Position numbers and translations under genes: made by a program. Shown in pieces: positions 1-10,288 of a stretch of DNA of 24,804 nt. The DNA is from a virus, in the IMG/VR virus record IMGVR_UViG_3300041403_000450, positions 1 through 24,804 of that record. One strand, given 5' to 3'. The notes beneath the pieces were generated by a model, which saw only the letters and a list, made by a program, of their open reading frames with translations, did no database searches and was not told where the DNA came from. Position 1 is the stretch's first letter. Every line of letters begins with the position of its first letter.

Positions 1-720
1 AATCTCGCTGGACTGGTCACTGCCAACAGTGCTTAGATTGTTGACACAAACAATCTCGACAACATCACCAGCAGTCAGGGCTGTATTGAAAGTAACCGTG
101 ATACCATCTGTTGCAGTGTAATCTACATCACGTTGCTGTAGAACACCGTTAGCATAGACATTCTCCCTACCTGTGGAGTATTGAAGAGTACCACCCGATT
201 CACCAGAACCAGAGAATACAGTCTGACTAGCGGTAGCAGTAGTTCTCCATCGGGTGTATCCAGGAATATCTGTATCGCTAAGTCGGTTATCTACATACTG
301 TTTGGTGACTGCATCAGAGTCGTTATTAGGGATACCAAGATTAGTGACTTGGTTACCTCCCATATTGAGATCACCAGCAAATGGATTGCTACCATCCGTT
401 AGGACTGCATTGTTGGAAATCTCCTGTGTTACATATAGAGTTTGCAGATAGTTAGCGTTTAGGTCCTGAGCACGAATGCTGGAGCCTGGAGAGAATACTA
501 CCTCCTGATCATCAATGTTAGTCGATCGGTAGATGCGGATTTCGGCCCCAGAAGCAGGGGCAGAATCCATTTGTATTTGAGTATCTGTAGCAAAAGAGAA
601 GGCAGTGGTATTTGTGTCATCCAAAGACACTAGTACGTCAGACTGCTCTAAGTATGGAAATGTGATAGAAAAGAGGACGGTAGATCCGTCCCCTACGTAG
701 TTGTTCTCAGTTACCGCCAT
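1..720 (-). CDS. Tail fibre protein, N-terminal part (T7 gp17-like; cut by window edge)
   Basis: The ATG is at 720 and the frame stays open to base 1, giving 240 residues; the rest lies outside the window. The start, MAVTENNYVGDGSTVLFSIT, and the later NPFAGDLNMGGNQVTNLG and DAVTKQYVDNRL segments match the N-terminal particle-binding domain of T7 gp17-type fibres and the short collar repeat that follows it. In this family the N-terminus docks the trimeric fibre on the tail and the distal part binds the host receptor. It overlaps the 3' end of the gp16-like gene by 14 nt, so translation is probably coupled; no strong Shine-Dalgarno is visible. Its last-gene position matches T7. The receptor-binding part is not visible, so nothing can be said about host range. 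Confidence 0.9.
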   Translation of the reverse strand, partial: MAVTENNYVGDGSTVLFSITFPYLEQSDVLVSLDDTNTTAFSFATDTQIQMDSAPASGAEIRIYRSTNIDDQEVVFSPGSSIRAQDLNANYLQTLYVTQEISNNAVLTDGSNPFAGDLNMGGNQVTNLGIPNNDSDAVTKQYVDNRLSDTDIPGYTRWRTTATASQTVFSGSGESGGTLQYSTGRENVYANGVLQQRDVDYTATDGITVTFNTALTAGDVVEIVCVNNLSTVGSDQSSEI

Positions 721-3700
721 TAGCGTATGTCATGAATGAGGTACGTTGCTGCTCATTGCGTAGCTTCTGCATCTCAGCCTGCTTGGCCTGGTGATCCCGC
801 ATGCGCTTAGCGAATGTGGTACCGGGGTTGGCTAGCTTGTTAGCTGCATAGTTGTTTTGAGCATAGTTGTAGTAAGCCTTGAAGACCTTCTCGTAGAACT
901 CCTGCTGAGGTACCTTGATGTTCTCAGCTGCTCCCTGTTCAAACATAAGAGTAGCCGTTTCATCATCTCCCCCTTTACGCAGGTTAGGTCCGTTCTCACT
1001 GTAGAAGTAATCTTTCAGGACCTGCTCCATAGTGCGGTTACGATATAGTGGCAGCTTAACGGATGTTGCAATCTTTGTGATTGAATTCCGATCCTCCCAA
1101 GTCAAAGGCATTCCTTGGAAGTGCTCTGGTGGTTGCTTTGGTTCAATCCCATACTTCTCAAACGCCTTGTTGATTGGTGTACGTGATTGCTTGCTAAGCC
1201 GGATCGGCTGAGCGAAGTTAAACATGCGAACACCGACGCTAAAGGGGGACTTATCGAAGCCATCAAAGGTCAGCGCTTCACCAGTGGTTGTGTCCAGCTT
1301 CATGGGCGCAGCTCCAGGCATTACGCCAGATGCCATCTTACGCATCAGTCCACCAAGACCTTGACCACTCATTCCCCATAGATCATCCATCAAACCTCGG
1401 GTCTGACGGGCTTCAGGGGAGATAATCTTAGCGGCCTGGTCCACAGCAATTGGGATAGGAAGTAGACCACGGGTGACCATACCACGTAGGTACCTCTCAC
1501 CAGTAGCTCCAAACTTCTGATCACCTGTAGCAGCGGCCATAAGAGCCTTCATATTGTCCCACATACCCAGGGTTGTCTCGAACACGGAGTTCTTGACTAC
1601 ACTGTTCACAGCGATGGCTGCAGTTTGGGTCCAGGGGTTGAAGTTGCGCTTCTGAGGTTCACCCATCTCACGGAACAAGTGGCCAAGCTCCATGCCCATA
1701 CCGAGGGCTTGAGCAAAGGGCTGTGCCCATGCATAGGAGATACGGTGCTCACCAAACCCAAGTGTGTAGGGCTTGCGCTGCTGATTGCTTTGGAAGAAGT
1801 CTCTACGACGATCAGGAGACATAGGACCAGCACCGTTACCCATGTCGAAGTAGCCCGCCAGCATCGCTGGGAGCATCATGATGTAACCAATGCGGAACTT
1901 ACCACGCTTGTACGCCAGCTTGTGTATCTGAGCAGGGGTTAGTGCTTCCACGCCCTTCTGCTTGACCAGATCCTCCAATCCCTTCCACTCTTGATCGAAC
2001 TGACGCAGAGCAATGTTGATACCAGGGGTAGCCCCAATGGCCTCGTCAAAGATCTTAGCGGGAGTCTTGAGGAATATCATACCGGTGAGCCCCTTGATGC
2101 CCGGTGCATCCGCAACTTTGTTGAGAGCTCTGAAGAATGGGCTATTGTTCAGCTTGCCACTACGGAAGTTGAAGTAGTCACCATAGTCCTTGATCTCCTT
2201 GTAGAGAGGATGATCCTTGTTGACGGCACCTAGTTCATCGAACATGGAATCCATCAGCTTCTGCTTCTTCTCCATAATCTCAGCAGAACGCTTAGCGATG
2301 GACTTAGATGTCCAGGGCTCATAGAAGCCCTCCAGGACCTCTGCAGCAGCTTCGCGGGTAGCAATGCTGTTGGCTGCCATGTACTGACCGATGTTCTCGG
2401 TCTTACCGATCCAGTCAGTAGGCTTACGGAGAATACCAAGCTGTGCAGCACGGCTGAAGTAGTCAGAGATAGACAGCATCATACTGCCCACAGGACCGAG
2501 GTTACCGGCCATCTTCTCACCACGGACAGCCTCTACCATCTCGAACTCTTCCGGCTTCATGGAGAGCTTAAGTGGCATGGTATCAGGCATCTTCCAGATC
2601 TTGCCCATGACATCGTTCATGTGCATGATGGTCTCCTGCACAGACATCATCTCTGCAGCAGCCATTGCGCGCATCTTGCGGTCCAAGCGGCCAAAGCCGA
2701 TACCGCCTACGCCCTTCATCACTGGCTCAACGGTTGTCCGCATTGTCAGGTTGACGAAGTTCTCAGCGATGGTCTTAGGATTAGCCAGGACTGTACGAGT
2801 GTGCAAGGCATCCACACCACGACCAAGAGCGGTGAGCAGGGTGGAGAATATCGGAGTAGCCTTGGCGATGTCATCAGCAGCTTCAAGAGCATTGAAGGCT
2901 TGATCCATCTGGCGCATCATGGTGCCAGTCACATCCTTGCCATTGCGGATCTGTTCGATCACTTCATCGACTGCCTTGTACAAAGCCTCTGACGATTTGT
3001 CAGACTTAACGATGTTATCAGCAACCTCTTGTGTGAACGTAGCAGCGTTCTTGGCCTGCATCTTGTGGCCGATGAACGACCAGGTACGGGCAGCATCCCG
3101 CTTGAGCCGCATCATGGACTTCATAACCTGCCACTGACGATCAAACTGATCAGCAGTACTTAGACCGTTGAATGCAGCTTCACGACGTACGGCTCCAAGA
3201 TCCTTGAAGTTCTTACGACCATTGGTGAGATAGTTATCGATCAGCGTAAGGGCTGAGCCGATCTTGGGGTTCTCACGGAGGATAACACCCTTACCTTGAA
3301 GGGTCTCGATCTCTTCACCAAGCTGAAGGCGTAGACCGTTCTCGAAGGCTTCGTAGTCACCACCACCCTTGATGTAGGCTTCAATGGAAGGGAGTGTACG
3401 TAGATTGCTCTTGGCTAGGATAGCCTTGTACTCAGCACTACGTGGATCAAGCTTCTCGATTCCCTTGAACGCATCTATCTCAGCAAAGATCTCATTGGTC
3501 TTGCCTTGGATGTAGTTACGGGCTGCTTCAGGGCTCTTCGCGTGGTAGAGGAACTCGTTCTGAGATACTGGATAAGGATCACGCTCCAGGGTTCCCTTGA
3601 CGGAGGCTCCCTGATCTACACCAAGCTCCTTGCGGGGCTTGACTGTGACCAGCTCATCCATCTCGTAGCCCATCTTGGTGGCCATCTTACGAGTAGTGGC

Positions 3701-6007
3701 CTCGGGTACCATGAAGTTCGCCTTGCTCAAAGCCTCTGATACACCCTTAGGATCGGAGAGAAGTTCAGCTGCATTCTTAGCCTGGAAGTCATTTAGGGTA
3801 CCCTTGAAGAACTTCTCCGACAATGCTTCGTGGCTCATCTGACGACGACGTAGCGCCTCCGTCATTTCAGCCCACTCATTGGACATCCCCTTTGAAGCCC
3901 CTAGAATATCCAAGCCACCAGTATCAATGACTTCCCCAGCATCAACATCAAAGACGGCTTTCTGATCGAAGGCAGAAGCCAGCTCCTCTGCCGTCTTAGA
4001 GTCAGGCACATTGCGGCTGATCTCCATTTGGAGCTTACCGGTTTCAGGATCGATCCATCCACCAAGGTAGGTATCATCACGGCTGAGGATCTTCTGGTTG
4101 CGCTGCATCCACTCACCAAGCTGCTGGGTAATTGCTTGGCGGTTCTTGCTGAGCTGAGCACCTCCTTCACCGAATCCCACACCACGCATGGTGGGTATGT
4201 CCAGTTCGATCTCTTCAGCATCAATGCTAACCATGAAGCCAGACTTGGGCGACTCAAGGTTGTAGGGGTTGACACTGAATCCCTCTGGGTTCTCAGCAAT
4301 AAGCTTGGGCAGGTCCTTGTGAGGCACCGTAGAAGATGCCTTGACTTGGGTAGGCTCAGGAGTAGCAGTGAAATCATAGGGCTCCAGCTTACCGCCTTCA
4401 CCTACAACTGCGTACTGATAACCATCAATCTCTTCGGAGAAGCCAGCACGTTGATATAGACGGGCTCTGGTGTTGCCACCACGACGCTCAGCAGCTTTGC
4501 TGATCTGAAGGTCTTCAGCAGTGTCTGTAAGGGGCTTAGCACGTACTACCGTGCCAGGCTCCATATCAGCTGCGATGTTCTTGAACTGAGTGCGAAGCTC
4601 AGCCAGCTCAGGAACATTCTTGGAACCGTTCTCTACATCCCAGACGATATCGTAGACATCTCTACCAAGGTTCTTGTCTGCTTCAGGTGTGGCGTACCAA
4701 GTGATAGGTGTGCCCTTGGAAGTACTGAGGTTGAACTCCAGCTCTTCAGTGGGAAGCTTAGGGAACTCCGTGGGAGAACCCATATGTGGGACAAAGCGGT
4801 TACCAGGGGTAAACAGCTCAGGATAGTCAAGGGCTACTTCATCCCAGGTAGCGTCATAGCCCGCCTCGCTGGCGGCTTTACGGTACATGTAGATGTCGAA
4901 CTCCTTCTGCTCCAGGGCAGATTGAAGCTCCGTGATGTCCTTCTCGTTTTTGATGATCTCATCAGTGATCTGCTTGGCCTGTCCCATGGACATGTGGTCA
5001 GAAGCACGCACGAGCTCTTCAGGATCACCCCCGTATGCAGCAGTGTTAGCGTAGTCGTCAACCGTCTTGATGGCCTCGTTACGGGCCTGGATGGTCTCAG
5101 GGTAGGCAGCTTTCGGCCCATCCACTTCAGGGGCAATCTTGGGGCCACCTGGTTTAAGGGAACGGAAGAACGGGTTGGAATCCAGAATAGTCTTGACTGC
5201 TGGCTCAAGTGCATTGGCTACACCACGCACAGCAGAGCCCATAAGGGCGCCTTCAATACCCGCCATAGTACGGGCACCGAGTGGGTTGTCCTCGATACTC
5301 GAGATGAGCTGTGATATGGTTGTGGTGGGACCAGATAGGCCTTCAGGGGCATTCTCTGCCACCCACTGGGCGAGTTGGTTGGTAAGGGATTCTTCATCAC
5401 CATGTGTAGCTACGAAGTCCTCGAGGAAGTCTCCACCCATCGTAGCGACCACTCCAGCGCCCTTAATGGGGTTATGACGTGCTGCTACCAGATAACGTAC
5501 CAGAGTGCGGGCGACAGCGCCTACTGTGGTATCGTTCTCTGCGATAAGGTTTGTACGGGCTGTGTATAGGTCTTTGCCAGTGACACCTTCTATGATATCA
5601 GCTGGTAGGTTGACCACACCCTCCACAAGGTCTTCCACACCGCCAAGGGTGGCACGGAGGCCTTCTTTCAGGACAGTACCAGCAGGACCGGTTTCAGGTA
5701 ATTGGATCTTCTCCGACTTCTTCCGGTTCTCCTCTCCCATACCCCATAGGTTTGTGCCGAGCATTTTGTCAACACCCTGGACACCGGACTTAACCCAGCC
5801 AGGAGGCTCATCAAACCTATTGTCTTCCTGTTGTTGTTGCTGTTGCGGTTGTTCTGGCTGAGGAGTTGGTTCGGCTGGGGCTACTGATGTGTCACCATAG
5901 GCGGCTTTCAGAGCCTCCAGCCTTTTTTCTTCAGCCTTTGGATCATAATATGAGGGATCAGCAGGCACCGAACCGGTGTACTGTTTCCCGTCTCCATTCA
6001 AAGGCAT
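707..6007 (-). CDS. Giant internal virion/ejection protein (T7 gp16-like position)
   Basis: This 1766-residue protein sits between the gp15-like protein and the tail fibre, the place of T7 gp16 (about 1318 aa), which forms part of the inner core and is ejected to help DNA cross the envelope. The N-terminus is proline/glutamine-rich with a six-Gln run (residues 55-60). No transglycosylase motif is seen at the N-terminus, unlike T7 gp16; that domain is in the neighbouring protein. Residues about 430-540 contain MEPGTVVRAKPLTD and RARLYQRAGF, resembling a GNAT or LPD-type domain. Residues about 640-700 contain YLGGWIDPETGKLQMEIS and DQKAVFDVDAGEVIDTGG, the style of large polyvalent protein-associated domains. 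Residues about 1070 to the end are Met/Ala-rich and amphipathic, beginning TVLANPKTIAENFVNL. The ATG at 6007 follows the previous stop by one base. Assignment by position is firm; domain calls are inference. Confidence 0.85.
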   Translation of the reverse strand: MPLNGDGKQYTGSVPADPSYYDPKAEEKRLEALKAAYGDTSVAPAEPTPQPEQPQQQQQQEDNRFDEPPGWVKSGVQGVDKMLGTNLWGMGEENRKKSEKIQLPETGPAGTVLKEGLRATLGGVEDLVEGVVNLPADIIEGVTGKDLYTARTNLIAENDTTVGAVARTLVRYLVAARHNPIKGAGVVATMGGDFLEDFVATHGDEESLTNQLAQWVAENAPEGLSGPTTTISQLISSIEDNPLGARTMAGIEGALMGSAVRGVANALEPAVKTILDSNPFFRSLKPGGPKIAPEVDGPKAAYPETIQARNEAIKTVDDYANTAAYGGDPEELVRASDHMSMGQAKQITDEIIKNEKDITELQSALEQKEFDIYMYRKAASEAGYDATWDEVALDYPELFTPGNRFVPHMGSPTEFPKLPTEELEFNLSTSKGTPITWYATPEADKNLGRDVYDIVWDVENGSKNVPELAELRTQFKNIAADMEPGTVVRAKPLTDTAEDLQISKAAERRGGNTRARLYQRAGFSEEIDGYQYAVVGEGGKLEPYDFTATPEPTQVKASSTVPHKDLPKLIAENPEGFSVNPYNLESPKSGFMVSIDAEEIELDIPTMRGVGFGEGGAQLSKNRQAITQQLGEWMQRNQKILSRDDTYLGGWIDPETGKLQMEISRNVPDSKTAEELASAFDQKAVFDVDAGEVIDTGGLDILGASKGMSNEWAEMTEALRRRQMSHEALSEKFFKGTLNDFQAKNAAELLSDPKGVSEALSKANFMVPEATTRKMATKMGYEMDELVTVKPRKELGVDQGASVKGTLERDPYPVSQNEFLYHAKSPEAARNYIQGKTNEIFAEIDAFKGIEKLDPRSAEYKAILAKSNLRTLPSIEAYIKGGGDYEAFENGLRLQLGEEIETLQGKGVILRENPKIGSALTLIDNYLTNGRKNFKDLGAVRREAAFNGLSTADQFDRQWQVMKSMMRLKRDAARTWSFIGHKMQAKNAATFTQEVADNIVKSDKSSEALYKAVDEVIEQIRNGKDVTGTMMRQMDQAFNALEAADDIAKATPIFSTLLTALGRGVDALHTRTVLANPKTIAENFVNLTMRTTVEPVMKGVGGIGFGRLDRKMRAMAAAEMMSVQETIMHMNDVMGKIWKMPDTMPLKLSMKPEEFEMVEAVRGEKMAGNLGPVGSMMLSISDYFSRAAQLGILRKPTDWIGKTENIGQYMAANSIATREAAAEVLEGFYEPWTSKSIAKRSAEIMEKKQKLMDSMFDELGAVNKDHPLYKEIKDYGDYFNFRSGKLNNSPFFRALNKVADAPGIKGLTGMIFLKTPAKIFDEAIGATPGINIALRQFDQEWKGLEDLVKQKGVEALTPAQIHKLAYKRGKFRIGYIMMLPAMLAGYFDMGNGAGPMSPDRRRDFFQSNQQRKPYTLGFGEHRISYAWAQPFAQALGMGMELGHLFREMGEPQKRNFNPWTQTAAIAVNSVVKNSVFETTLGMWDNMKALMAAATGDQKFGATGERYLRGMVTRGLLPIPIAVDQAAKIISPEARQTRGLMDDLWGMSGQGLGGLMRKMASGVMPGAAPMKLDTTTGEALTFDGFDKSPFSVGVRMFNFAQPIRLSKQSRTPINKAFEKYGIEPKQPPEHFQGMPLTWEDRNSITKIATSVKLPLYRNRTMEQVLKDYFYSENGPNLRKGGDDETATLMFEQGAAENIKVPQQEFYEKVFKAYYNYAQNNYAANKLANPGTTFAKRMRDHQAKQAEMQKLRNEQQRTSFMTYANGGN

Positions 6008-6008
6008 G

Positions 6009-9000
6009 TCATCGAATTCCTAGGATGTTACGGATACGTTGTGACCACTCGCGCTCAGCTTGAGGGGTCCAGGGTAGATCGTGTGGCATTGGGATATCAA
6101 CTGCAAGCCCGCCATCAGGAGAAGCAGACTTATAATGGTAGCTGGTGGCAGAGTGCTCCCCATCTTCCACTGAGCCAACTTTAATCCCTTGAGCTTCAAG
6201 CATAGCGATAGCTTGATCACGCTGCGGTGTAGTGGCAAAGGCGATGTGCTCATGGTAGTTTACTCCACCATGATCATCGCGGAACCCACCATGGGAGCGA
6301 TCACCAGTCAAATACTCAATTACTTGTAAATTCTGCTTGCCACCCATAGCCTGTTGGTCATGTGGGTTGCTAGTTTTACCAGTCCTATTCAGATAGTCAT
6401 TGACTACCTTGCGAGCCTTGGACATGTGCCGCTGGTACGACTTGTTATTGTAGGCTCCCCAGGCACCAAGGCCTTGGCTATCAAGGATCGACTTAGCTGC
6501 ACGGACATTGTTGCCGAGATCATAGAGATCCTCGTTGCTCTGCAGTCCAAACTGACGTAGACGCTGTGGTCCCATACCACCGATCATGTTGATCTGGAAG
6601 GCACCATAGCTTAGGTCTCCTGTGTCTGGGTTGTCATTGAGAGCCCTGGGACTACCCATACCTTCTCCCATGGCAATGGCCAGCATTTGCACCAGCTTGT
6701 CCTCTGGTACTCCTGCAGCAACCATCTGACTCACAACGTGCTCAGGGTTGGTGGGATCAGTGGCACCTTGGGCTGCACCCATTTGGAGGTGCTGTGGATC
6801 AGGTCCCACTTGAAGCCGCTGGAGATCTCGCCTTGCGGCGGCCTTCTGTGCGGTTGTAGCGTTACGTGACTTCAGAACATTCCAGGTTGTAGGTGCCTGC
6901 TGCTTGACGATCTGAGCAAAGCGAGCATACTTCTCAGCAGCTGTACCATAGTTGCTCAGCTTACCGAACTCCTTCTCGACACCCGCTGTGAACATCTGAG
7001 CACTCTCGTGGGTCATGCCCATGGAGCGAGCCCAGATTGCTGCTGTACCGTAGCTGAAGTCAGGGGAATCAGATCCAGGAGGATTCCACTTGAAGCTGCC
7101 AGAATCGCCAAGGAGGCGGATCTGTGCACGGATGATGCTGGGCACTGTGCGGCCTGTAGCATCGGCCACAGCGAGGACTGAAGGGGGAATATAGTTGGGT
7201 TCCGTCTCCATCCGGTTGATCTCTGCTGCTGCCTGGGATCCACTCTCAAAGACGGCAATGCTGTCAACATCACCAGCCTTGATACCAAGCTTGCGCATCT
7301 GTAGGGAGCTCAGGTCACCAACGTAGTCAGTGTTATCCAGCTCAGGGATCTTACGCTGCTTGGCTGTGATCTGGTTCCACTCCAGCTCTACCTTGTCCTG
7401 ACTACGCAGACCTTCAGCGGCGCCTGCAACGTTACCAGTGAGGTAGCGCTTAGGAGCTTCACCAGATAGGTGTGTCCTGGACCATTCGCTGAAGAGGTTG
7501 GGGATATCTGCAGCGTCTTCGGTGATGTCAATGTTTGGATTGGACCGAAGGTAGTTGACGAAGTCTCGCATCGCTGCAGATTTGGCAAGCTTGAGACGCT
7601 CATCTGGGTTGATGAAGTTCTCTGCCTGTATCTCCGGTGTGAGCACACGCTCGAGCTCGAGATCAATGTTCTCGAAGACAACGGCGTGCTTCTCCTTGAT
7701 AGCCTTGCCGAAGTCAGCATACTTCATCAGGTCAGCACGCTGAGCCTCGGGGATGTTGGTATCAGCCAGAAGCTGCTCAGCCGTCTCTGCTGCATCCATG
7801 GGATCCATCAGCTCCAACTTGCCCTTGAGCTCCTTGAAGCGGTTCTGGGCTATCGTTGGGTTGTACAGCTTGGTCAGCATCTTACTGCGCAAGACAGCAT
7901 TCTCTGGACCGGGGAACATCATCTCCACCTCGTCTCTAGCACCGGCTAGGCGCTCCTGAGCATCTTCATAGGTCATATTGCCGTTGACAATATCAGCTAT
8001 GACAGAGTCTGTGAACTGGGTGGCTGTTGTGTCCTTCTGCTCCTGGTACTGCTTGTGAGCCTTCTCCTCGTAGGCTTCCAGCTTGGCATCCAGATACATC
8101 AGAGGTCTGGCCTGGCCCTGGAATAGGGTGCGCAGGTCTTGCTCTAGGGCTGTAGCTCTATCAAGCTGGTCAAAGGGTGTAGCCAGGATCTTGGAGGCAC
8201 CTAGCTTGGCCAGCTGCATGGAGGCTTCAACTAGGTCACCACCACGAGATGCTGTCATCTCACGGAGCTGCAGTCCTAGCTCTTCAACACGCTCGGTTGG
8301 GAGCATTCCTTCAAGGGAATCAAATGCACCGTAGGCATCGTTATCGGCCTTGTTCTCCAGTTGTTGCTTGTACTGCTGGGTGCGCTCCTGTGTGCCACGA
8401 GCACGGATTCCCATGTCAGCAGCATTAGCTTGACGATGGAAGTACTTGTGGACTACAGCAGGGTTGATAGCTACAAGACCTTTCTCCTTGAAAAAGTCAC
8501 GGCGAGCTTCGCGTAGGGCGTCAGCTTCGACGAGTGCAGGGTCAGCACCAGGCGGCATATTAGCCAGTGCTTCCACCACCTTGCGGTTAGCATAATCTGG
8601 ATAGTCAGATGCTGCAGCTTGAGCCAGTCCCTCTTGGACCCCGTATAGGTAGAACTTGTTGCTATTACGGATGTGGTTAGCATCGTTCTGAAGCCCCGCT
8701 TTTTCGAAGGCATCTGCGGTAGCCATAGTCCGCTCAAGGCCAGAGACCTTGGCGTTGTTGATGGCTCCCATGTTGTCCAGAACATGCTGGAACTGGGTTG
8801 GGTCGGCCTGTGCGGCCATCATACCTTCAACTTGGAGGTTGTAGTTCTCCTCGTTGATGCGGTTGGCTTCAGCCTCCCAAAGGGATTTACTGAAGCTCAG
8901 TGCAGTCTTACCAAGTTCAGTCACAGCACGGACATCGTCCTGCTGCATCTGCATTTGCATGCGACCTACTTGGTCTTTATTCTGCAGCTCAACGTTAGCG

Positions 9001-9311
9001 TTGTTGATACGCTGTTCGTTAAGACGGCGAGCATTATCCAGCTTGGCCTGGCCACGTTGATCCTTGAGTCTGTTCTTCCACTCAGCTGCACGAGCTTGTT
9101 GCTCGAACATCAGCTGTTGGTTCGCCATTGTCTGGCGCTGGTTCTCAAGTGTATTCTGGTTGCTCAGCTCGTTGTTACGGTTGACCTGCTGCTGGACTGC
9201 TGCAGCATTCTCTTGGTAGTTGGAGTAGATCTTATTGACTGCTCCAGACATATCTACGGCACGGCCTTGCACACCGCCGCGCTTGGCCTGCCTGCCTCTG
9301 TACTGTGTCAT
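6009..9311 (-). CDS. Internal virion protein (gp15-like) with C-terminal lytic transglycosylase and DD-peptidase-like domains
   Basis: The protein has 1100 residues; T7 gp15 has about 747. Residues 25-130 are Gln/Asn-rich and coiled-coil-like, and 130-850 are mostly helical, as expected of an ejected core protein. Residues about 858-965 look like an SLT-type lytic transglycosylase: a probable catalytic Glu883 in AMGEGMGSPRA, then SYGAFQIN (901-908) and GAWGAY (949-954). Residues about 1003-1100 hold a second, histidine-rich domain with YHEH (1019-1022), SYHYKS (His1059) and GGLAVDIP (Asp1072), resembling metal-binding M15/VanY-type peptidase folds, though the His-Asp spacing is longer than the classical motif. 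The likely role is local opening of peptidoglycan during DNA ejection. Start and upstream stop overlap as ATGA. The core role is well supported by position and size; the exact specificity of the last domain is uncertain. Confidence 0.87.
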   Translation of the reverse strand: MTQYRGRQAKRGGVQGRAVDMSGAVNKIYSNYQENAAAVQQQVNRNNELSNQNTLENQRQTMANQQLMFEQQARAAEWKNRLKDQRGQAKLDNARRLNEQRINNANVELQNKDQVGRMQMQMQQDDVRAVTELGKTALSFSKSLWEAEANRINEENYNLQVEGMMAAQADPTQFQHVLDNMGAINNAKVSGLERTMATADAFEKAGLQNDANHIRNSNKFYLYGVQEGLAQAAASDYPDYANRKVVEALANMPPGADPALVEADALREARRDFFKEKGLVAINPAVVHKYFHRQANAADMGIRARGTQERTQQYKQQLENKADNDAYGAFDSLEGMLPTERVEELGLQLREMTASRGGDLVEASMQLAKLGASKILATPFDQLDRATALEQDLRTLFQGQARPLMYLDAKLEAYEEKAHKQYQEQKDTTATQFTDSVIADIVNGNMTYEDAQERLAGARDEVEMMFPGPENAVLRSKMLTKLYNPTIAQNRFKELKGKLELMDPMDAAETAEQLLADTNIPEAQRADLMKYADFGKAIKEKHAVVFENIDLELERVLTPEIQAENFINPDERLKLAKSAAMRDFVNYLRSNPNIDITEDAADIPNLFSEWSRTHLSGEAPKRYLTGNVAGAAEGLRSQDKVELEWNQITAKQRKIPELDNTDYVGDLSSLQMRKLGIKAGDVDSIAVFESGSQAAAEINRMETEPNYIPPSVLAVADATGRTVPSIIRAQIRLLGDSGSFKWNPPGSDSPDFSYGTAAIWARSMGMTHESAQMFTAGVEKEFGKLSNYGTAAEKYARFAQIVKQQAPTTWNVLKSRNATTAQKAAARRDLQRLQVGPDPQHLQMGAAQGATDPTNPEHVVSQMVAAGVPEDKLVQMLAIAMGEGMGSPRALNDNPDTGDLSYGAFQINMIGGMGPQRLRQFGLQSNEDLYDLGNNVRAAKSILDSQGLGAWGAYNNKSYQRHMSKARKVVNDYLNRTGKTSNPHDQQAMGGKQNLQVIEYLTGDRSHGGFRDDHGGVNYHEHIAFATTPQRDQAIAMLEAQGIKVGSVEDGEHSATSYHYKSASPDGGLAVDIPMPHDLPWTPQAEREWSQRIRNILGIR

Positions 9312-10288
9312 GGACCGTTACTTCCTGGTTGTTTGATCAATGCATTGGCCTGCATGCCTGTCTGAATGCCTCCCAGGACAGCTCCACCAAGACCCGATAC
9401 AAGGCCAAGGCCACTAGGTCCAGGAGCGGAAATAGGCTTGCTCTGCCATGCGGTAGCACCCATAGGTGGCAGCTTGGTCTGCAGATCAGCTAGGATTGGG
9501 GCATCAGGGAAGGGGCTGTAGATAGGGGCTTGCGGAGAGGGGCCTAGGATAGGCCGCATGGGCATTGGAGTCAGCTGGCTTATTGCCGCTGCTTCCTGTG
9601 CTCCACGCTCAATGAAGGCGTTTGTAGCCTGCGTATAGTAGTCCTCTGTAGCTGCCTCCAGGTTGGCGTTAAGCAGTGTTGCTTCACGTCCGTAGCTAGC
9701 AAGAGTATCCATCTCGAGGATACCGATAGTCTGGCCTTGTTGACCACGAGCAAGAACAGCGCCCTGAGCTTTCAGGGTTGTCCCCATCAGCTTCTCGCCT
9801 TCGAAAGCCGCACGACGTGCTTCATCTTCGAGAGCTGACTGTGCATCAAGGAGCTTACCGCTAAGCCCCATGTCCATGAACTTCTTCTGGAGAGAGAAGG
9901 CGTCACGCTGGAGATGGTATTGCGCCAGGTCATTGCTGTACTTGCTAGCTTGCTGAAGGTTGTTGAAATTGGATTGTACAACAGACTGGTAGAATGCCTG
10001 GCTTTGTCTGATGTTACTAAAGTTGACTTGTTGCGTCTGCATCAGCGATTGCTGAACCATACGCTTATTGTCCAGAGTGATCGCTCTATTGTTTGAGCGC
10101 ATCTGGAACTGCATCTGTTGCAGCTGCAGCTGGTTGGCATTGATCTGAGCTTGGCTCTGATTCATCCATTGCTGGCGGGCCATCGCATTCTGATGGGCCA
10201 CTGCGTTGGATTGTGCTTGGTACTGGCCAATTGCGCCAATACCGCCAACAACGGCAGATGCAACGCCTAGTGCTACTGGTGCGCACAT
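9308..10288 (-). CDS. Internal virion protein (T7 gp14-like)
   Basis: A 326-residue protein in the T7 gp14 slot (T7 gp14 is about 196 aa). Residues 6-22 are a Gly/Ala/Val-rich hydrophobic stretch (VALGVASAVVGGIGAIG). Residues 23-130 are extremely Gln/Asn-rich and likely coiled coil. Residues about 293-312 form a second Gly-rich hydrophobic segment (GLGLVSGLGGAVLGGIQTG), after a proline-rich linker from about 240. In T7, gp14 leaves the virion first and forms the outer-membrane pore; the two hydrophobic segments fit such a role. It overlaps the gp13-like gene by 16 nt and its stop overlaps the next start as ATGA. A GGAG lies 11 nt upstream of the ATG, farther than ideal. Sequence identity to T7 gp14 is not obvious, so the name rests on order, composition and hydrophobic ends. 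Confidence 0.8.
   Translation of the reverse strand: MCAPVALGVASAVVGGIGAIGQYQAQSNAVAHQNAMARQQWMNQSQAQINANQLQLQQMQFQMRSNNRAITLDNKRMVQQSLMQTQQVNFSNIRQSQAFYQSVVQSNFNNLQQASKYSNDLAQYHLQRDAFSLQKKFMDMGLSGKLLDAQSALEDEARRAAFEGEKLMGTTLKAQGAVLARGQQGQTIGILEMDTLASYGREATLLNANLEAATEDYYTQATNAFIERGAQEAAAISQLTPMPMRPILGPSPQAPIYSPFPDAPILADLQTKLPPMGATAWQSKPISAPGPSGLGLVSGLGGAVLGGIQTGMQANALIKQPGSNGP

Follow-up and report, generated by a model that had tools for sequence, protein, structure and literature searches.

A variable module zone in a gp16-like ejection protein: candidate cargo of T7-like phages

Do the ejection proteins of T7-like phages carry domains with a task of their own in the host cell? The question arises from the virus record IMGVR_UViG_3300041403_000450. 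We took it at its full length of 24,804 bases and call this stretch the window. It encodes a gp16-like ejection (internal virion) protein on its minus strand (707..6007), in a single open reading frame (ORF) of 1766 residues. A first-pass annotation placed polyvalent-type (LPD) and GNAT-like modules between positions 3900 and 4720 (residues 430-702). It described the protein as 450 residues longer than T7 gp16, in agreement with the 1318 residues given in an excerpt of PMC8954989. The strings that it pointed out are present in the ORF: RARLYQRAGF at residues 514-523, MEPGTVVRAKPLTD at 482-495, YLGGW at 647-651 and FDQ at 680-682.

We find two modules at this locus. The first is an optional cassette. 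The second, downstream of it, is a conserved domain, named here GGW after its motif. The annotated interval hits both features, although it is slightly short (cassette about 4328-4793, GGW about 3881-4312). Our preferred reading, at a rough probability of 0.55, is a swappable "cargo" zone in the gp16-type ejection protein of T7-like phages. Such a zone would be akin to polyvalent proteins, and its modules would act in the host cytoplasm.

An optional cassette in the ejection protein

The nearest relative outside the same virus is the contig L007. Its protein has 1624 residues and is 84.6% identical to that of the window (1370/1620 aligned residues). One large gap separates the two proteins, and the DNA similarity ends at 4327 and restarts at 4794. 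The optional cassette (about residues 406-560; 4328..4793, minus strand) is present in the window and absent from L007. It is likewise absent from L008, at the identical place. As read from these alignments, the presence and absence of the cassette between the window and this close relative is clean. No repeats flanking the cassette were found when we looked for signs of recombination. Its G+C content (51.8%) is near equal to that of the whole gene (52.4%).

Two further IMG/VR contigs equal the window over 10,720 bases with zero mismatches. We therefore set aside a one-off assembly artefact, although these contigs possibly come from the same site or virus.

Homologous modules in other phages

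Longer modules are present in SS120-1, L025, L040/L026 and L030. They have the same motif order as the cassette: LPNG..I.W, YxIxWD, F..I....PGT.V..E, then R.KLY.RAGF and a final strand. Against the window protein, a four-member module profile scores 32.7 bits, compared with 6.5 for the best of 2000 shuffles of the same protein. The four profile modules score 63.1-96.4 bits in leave-one-out tests, and a fifth module, in L060 (residues 447-705; near-copies L061 and L064), reaches 91.7 bits. In a set of 22 family proteins, made of the window and 21 proteins without the module, the window obtains 35.0 bits, and none of the 21 exceeds 1.6. These scores make the window cassette a homologue of modules from five other groups of phages.

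The GNAT-like core of the cassette comprises residues 447-545 (4373..4669, minus strand). A five-module profile from the other phages matches residues 447-499 and 509-545. The window copy is compact; a long insertion that separates the third strand from the RAGF helix in the others has no counterpart in it. It also differs at the loop GSKNVPELA (residues 461-469; 4601..4627, minus strand). At this position the window reads NGSKNVPELAEL, whereas the other five modules present G-x-x-G or a richer glycine loop.

The GNAT-like module profile matches no sequence in the PDB. Neither this module nor the GGW domain has a relative in 84,980 bacterial and archaeal species, in scans that need short conserved peptides and can miss distant prophage copies.

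Is the cassette a GNAT?

In GNATs, motif B reads N..A..LYxxxGF. The acyl-CoA loop, Q/R-x-x-G-x-G/A, lies at the start of a long helix. RARLYQRAGF (residues 514-523; 4439..4468, minus strand) resembles motif B, with its helix and following strand. The motif-B region of the window is NTRARLYQRAGF, and [LI]Y.R.G is conserved in all six aligned modules.

We modelled the cassette with AlphaFold2 from a four-row alignment. The model shows strand-strand-helix-strand-helix-helix-strand, the order expected for a GNAT. It is a weak model, with a predicted local distance difference test (pLDDT) of 53 and a predicted template modelling score (pTM) of 0.49. Such values would also suit another small alpha/beta domain, unrelated to GNATs, whose LYxRAGF helix came to resemble motif B by convergence. 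We regard this alternative as rather unlikely. The strands and helices follow one another as in GNATs, the motif sits where GNATs have it, and GNATs dominate the structural matches. With Foldseek, nothing was found for the model below E 0.1; the top four matches (E at least 0.1) include a spermine/spermidine acetyltransferase. VIA-align of 999 Foldseek chains gave Z up to 6.4 against GNATs (2fl4, root-mean-square deviation 3.3, 94 aligned residues), where Z below 8 may reflect merely a common arrangement. Among the 28 matches listed at Z of at least 5.0, three are N-terminal parts of NUDIX proteins and three have titles without acetyltransferase (2qml, 1wk4 and 7byy). The remaining ones are named acetyltransferases, or toxins that we take to be GNATs. 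In all but the three NUDIX rows, the aligned region is the C-terminal part of the matched protein.

The profile comparisons bear on the same alternative. No acetyltransferase Pfam model matches any module tested (E up to 10), and PF00583 is found in none of the four records carrying longer modules. We compared the module profile by hhalign with six E. coli GNATs and 41 control proteins from the same loci. It aligns at RARLYQRAGF to E. coli RimI, YhhY, SpeG and YjaB. The best probability is 8% (against the six-GNAT alignment), and the matched stretch is short and confined to LY.RAGF, as convergence would allow. Nevertheless, the GNATs rank 1-4, 8 and 10 of 47, and each of them outranks at least 37 of the 41 controls.

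The cassette is probably a GNAT fold, truncated, and the window copy is probably not an ordinary acetyltransferase. The GNAT-like character given by the first-pass annotation stands at the level of fold and motif (model, VIA-align, RARLYQRAGF), and the likeness may go no further. It does not extend to an acetyltransferase profile match or to the glycine loop.

The GGW domain

The GGW domain comprises residues 566-709 (3881..4312, minus strand). It is an alpha/beta domain, identified by tblastn, profile, AlphaFold2 and BFVD. Its YLGGW motif (residues 647-651; 4055..4069, minus strand) falls in conserved columns of alignments A1 and A10. The domain is present in the cyanophages Syn5, P60, S-CBP42 and SS120-1, with identities of 25-34% by tblastn and 34-36% in alignment A1. 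With both the window and L007 left out of the profile, the window scores 97.9 bits (E 6.6e-31). The same profile finds the 154-residue protein of L038 (E 1.2e-13), Rhodococcus phage E3 gp68 (E 1.7e-10) and mycobacteriophage LinStu gp105 (E 7.3e-8).

The domain is found in other settings as well. It is free-standing, as a 154-residue protein, in five phage contigs, L035-L039 (for example, L038 5929-6393). In LinStu gp105 and E3 gp68, it lies in the C-terminal part (L041 4212-5513; L042 4053-5627).

The AlphaFold2 model of this domain is confident (pLDDT 79, pTM 0.73), and its core blocks of 10 residues reach 82-95. The combined alignments of both modules (A6 and A8) were misaligned by MAFFT and were kept out of folding. 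BFVD gives 23 matches at E of 0.001 or less, and every named one is a phage protein. They include short proteins (104-139 residues) and parts of large ones; the names of two of them refer to a zeta toxin domain and to XkdF. In the PDB, the structure search found none below E 0.3, with a best VIA-align Z of 2.9, and the profile found no sequence. Since no solved structure matches, we offer no function for this domain.

The GGW domain has no match to any Pfam LPD model and no Pfam match above cut-off; it is phage-specific. The LPD assignment in the strict sense is not supported. Neither the whole protein nor the domain matches a Pfam LPD model; their only Pfam matches, to other families, are strays below the cut-offs. 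On the other hand, the expectation of discrete domains in place of an extended helical core holds: an optional cassette and a confidently folded GGW domain, both recurring in phage proteins.

The variable zone among relatives

We merged the proteins at 95% identity. This left 23 with the GGW domain, and the zone is readable in 22. The count of 22 excludes L017 (truncated before the zone), the free-standing L035-L039 and the mycobacteriophage and Rhodococcus phage proteins. It also excludes proteins of the S-CBP2, L047 and L049 kind, which do not have the GGW domain. Members of this set supplied the profiles of the ADP-ribosyltransferase (ART)-like and GNAT-like modules. The profiles that found L058 (ART-like), L060 and the window (both GNAT-like) did not include the protein found, and four others were recovered by leave-one-out.

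The GNAT-like module is present in six of the 22 proteins (window, SS120-1, L025, L030, L040/L026 and L060). The ART-like module is present in four: P60, S-CBP42, L058 and L040/L026 (labels L027, L028, L040 and L058 in the family test). One protein, L040/L026, has both, and 13 have neither. Their placement is not uniform. In SS120-1, L025, L040 and L060, the GNAT-like module lies before the TWDD motif. In the window it lies between PELF and GGW, and in L030 after GGW. In L040, the ART-like and GNAT-like modules stand in tandem, at residues 393-852 of a 1951-residue ejection protein.

Three ART-like modules match PARP (3/3, best E 0.099), exotoxin A (1/3, E 0.079) and ART-PolyVal (1/3, E 0.11), plus weaker strays. 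L058 matches PARP (E 1.6e-4) and, over almost its full length, ART-PolyVal (E 2.8e-4). This match links the variable zone to the polyvalent proteins of PMC5512222. Against PDB sequences, the ART-like profile gives exotoxin A and PARP15 at E 0.3-1, alongside unrelated proteins. The window itself has no ART-like module.

A tree of the 22 cores (from GGW to the C-terminus), which rests on one search, groups window/L007, L060/L021 and L058/L022 as sister pairs, each with 100/100. All three pairs differ in the cassette. The fewest changes on this tree are 5 for the GNAT-like and 4 for the ART-like module.

The gp16-like proteins without the GGW domain, from S-CBP2 (L003), L047 and L049, carry Peptidase_M23 (E 3.5e-8, 1.6e-9 and 2e-7) in mid-protein. 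It lies close to a segment in common with window residues 652-818. The S-CBP2 protein is annotated as two ORFs, of 1051 and 773 residues (L003 2780-8256), and L047 has a single ORF of 1809 residues (L047 1819-7245). The two-ORF annotation could be a real split or a sequencing frameshift.

Possible role of the zone

These sequence comparisons establish which modules exist, how they are related by homology and where sister phages differ in having them. That the modules are active as enzymes, and that they act in the cytoplasm of the host, is what we infer from likeness to known systems.

Under the swappable-cargo reading, the zone would consist of the conserved GGW domain and the adjoining optional cassette. 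The cassette would be a compact GNAT-fold module here and, in relatives, a longer GNAT-like module, an ART-like module, both or none. The ejection protein would be packed in the head core and unfold through the portal. Its middle part may then refold at the cytoplasmic face of the inner membrane, as the model of T7 gp16-C has it. Within minutes of the onset of infection, and ahead of any phage gene expression, the modules would find their targets among host proteins. The ART-like modules would ADP-ribosylate such proteins, and acylation would fall to those GNAT-like modules that have glycine loops. For the window copy, partner binding or a weakened enzyme is more likely, because its glycine loop is missing. 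For T7 gp16, excerpts of PMC8954989 describe packing in the head core and unfolding for ejection, and residues 411-1118 are modelled there as a cytoplasmic hub.

Several findings pull the other way. The points raised above against a GNAT identity count here too: the low confidence of the cassette model, the empty Foldseek range, the short hhalign match and the Pfam result. Among the six aligned modules, the window copy alone is without the G..G-type loop before the long helix. All ART-like matches are under the Pfam cut-offs. The core tree has long branches (L025, L030 and L027). Comparison of the protein with PDB chains by phmmer, where no profile search was made, found no T7 gp16 and only KIF20A (E 1.7). 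Moreover, 13 of the 22 relatives have no cassette at all, so it is dispensable for infection in general.

This last count also suits a structural role. The modules might adjust head-core packing, contacts with gp15 or DNA, or refolding in the envelope, in a tolerant surface loop that takes insertions. We consider a purely structural role unlikely. It would agree with the missing catalytic-type glycine loop in the window, with a GGW domain of no known catalytic fold and with the wide size differences among gp16 homologues (excerpt of PMC8954989). Nevertheless, the alternatives in the zone are unlike neutral filler. They look like enzymes whose substrates are proteins (ART-like) or the cell wall (M23, in the S-CBP2 kind).

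The M23 peptidase raises another alternative, action in the periplasm or the inner membrane during entry. There, the cassettes might modify envelope proteins or aid channel formation. A cell-wall enzyme in mid-protein, near the segment in common with the window, would be at home in such a place. ART and GNAT chemistry would not, since it requires NAD or acyl-CoA, and both are cytoplasmic. With T7 gp16 residues 411-1118 also modelled in the cytoplasm (PMC8954989, in excerpt), we find this location very doubtful.

The swappable-cargo reading can be extended, tentatively and at less than even odds. The ejection proteins of this T7-like group could be a general delivery chassis, with a fixed channel-forming core and a hot spot beside GGW. 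Close relatives would swap first-strike effectors there (acyltransferase-like, ART-like and others) that act before phage gene expression. The GGW domain might then be a docking or refolding partner that lets the cargo pass the portal.

Most work on podovirus ejection proteins treats them as channels. A family whose sister phages gain or lose enzyme-like modules in one zone would open cargo delivery by short-tailed phages to direct testing. The matched pairs window/L007, L060/L021 and L058/L022 are natural experiments for this purpose. Injected phage proteins with ART or GNAT domains are already known. In the open-licence literature, we found no gp16-type ejection protein described as having a zone where cassettes are present in some phages and absent from others.

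Gene neighbourhood

The gene order is as in T7. A gp14-like internal virion protein (9308..10288, minus strand; phrog_15746 E 2.1e-12, phrog_805 E 1.5e-4) is followed by a gp15-like protein (6009..9311, minus strand), the 1766-residue ORF and then a T7-type tail fibre N-terminal domain. The gp15-like protein carries an SLT_3 lysozyme-like domain at its C-terminal end (residues 864-951; Pfam E 2.1e-7). The gp16-like protein does not carry the N-terminal transglycosylase domain of the T7 gp16 type. Phages K1E and K1-5 likewise have the lysozyme-like domain on gp15 and not on gp16 (PMC8954989, in excerpt).

We searched 50,697 phage records by tblastn with the 1766-residue protein. Ten records match, which are five cyanophages twice each. 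All five matches are annotated "internal virion protein", with 23-34% identity over parts of the protein. The name gp16-like rests on gene order and on these annotated relatives, because no sequence match to T7 gp16, which has the PDB entry 7EYB (PMC8954989, in excerpt), was obtained in the PDB. In whole-protein scans, no Pfam or PHROG family is above noise; Dak2 (E 0.067) and DUF5880 are stray Pfam matches below their cut-offs and were dismissed. Against Pfam, PHROGs and PADLOC, the window modules likewise gave no match above threshold. A hydropathy scan of the window protein found no 19-residue stretch with a mean of at least 1.2. For this reason, the membrane segments assumed for T7 gp16 cannot be placed in it.

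Comparison with known systems

The window protein resembles T7 gp16 in its place after the gp14-like and gp15-like genes, in its size class and as an internal virion protein. Unlike T7 gp16, it is 448 residues longer and carries the GGW domain and the cassette. It has no sequence match to T7 gp16 among PDB chains, and the lysozyme-like domain is here on gp15.

The proteins of the cyanophages (Syn5 gp45, P60 gp34, S-CBP42 gp11 and that of SS120-1; PHROG 6651) have the GGW domain and, weakly, parts of the core in common with it. The variable zone is present in them too, holding either other cassettes or, as in Syn5, no cassette. Unlike the window protein, they match PHROG 6651. The window cassette lies on the opposite side of the TWDD/PELF segment, and the core of the window protein is far diverged.

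Compared with GNAT acetyltransferases (RimI, SpeG and others), the cassette shows the strand and helix order (in its weak model), the LYxRAGF motif and the VIA-align matches. It differs in its N-terminal truncation, in the missing glycine loop of the window and in having no Pfam match.

T4 Alt is an ADP-ribosyltransferase that is packed in the head, injected and modifies host proteins ahead of phage gene expression (PMC9503650, in excerpt). The likeness lies in how a head-packed, injected modifying enzyme works, and we claim no homology. Here the modules are domains of an ejection protein, and the window has no ART-like module.

The polyvalent proteins of phages and conjugative elements (Iyer et al. 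2017, PMC5512222) differ in their scaffold. Here it is an ejection protein of the gp16 type, and neither "gp16" nor "internal virion" occurs as a term in that paper. No MPTase and no named LPD was found here. The polyvalent analogy of the first-pass annotation gains from the ART-like modules in the zone of relatives, although the GGW domain is LPD-like only as a phage-specific domain of large multidomain proteins. Among the domains of polyvalent proteins that modify proteins, none is as frequent as the ART, and members of one GNAT family are typically found next to an ART (PMC5512222, in excerpt). As in those proteins, we see a large multidomain phage protein with presumed delivery together with DNA, ART-like and GNAT-like modules that are sometimes adjacent (as in L040), and phage-specific domains of unknown function.

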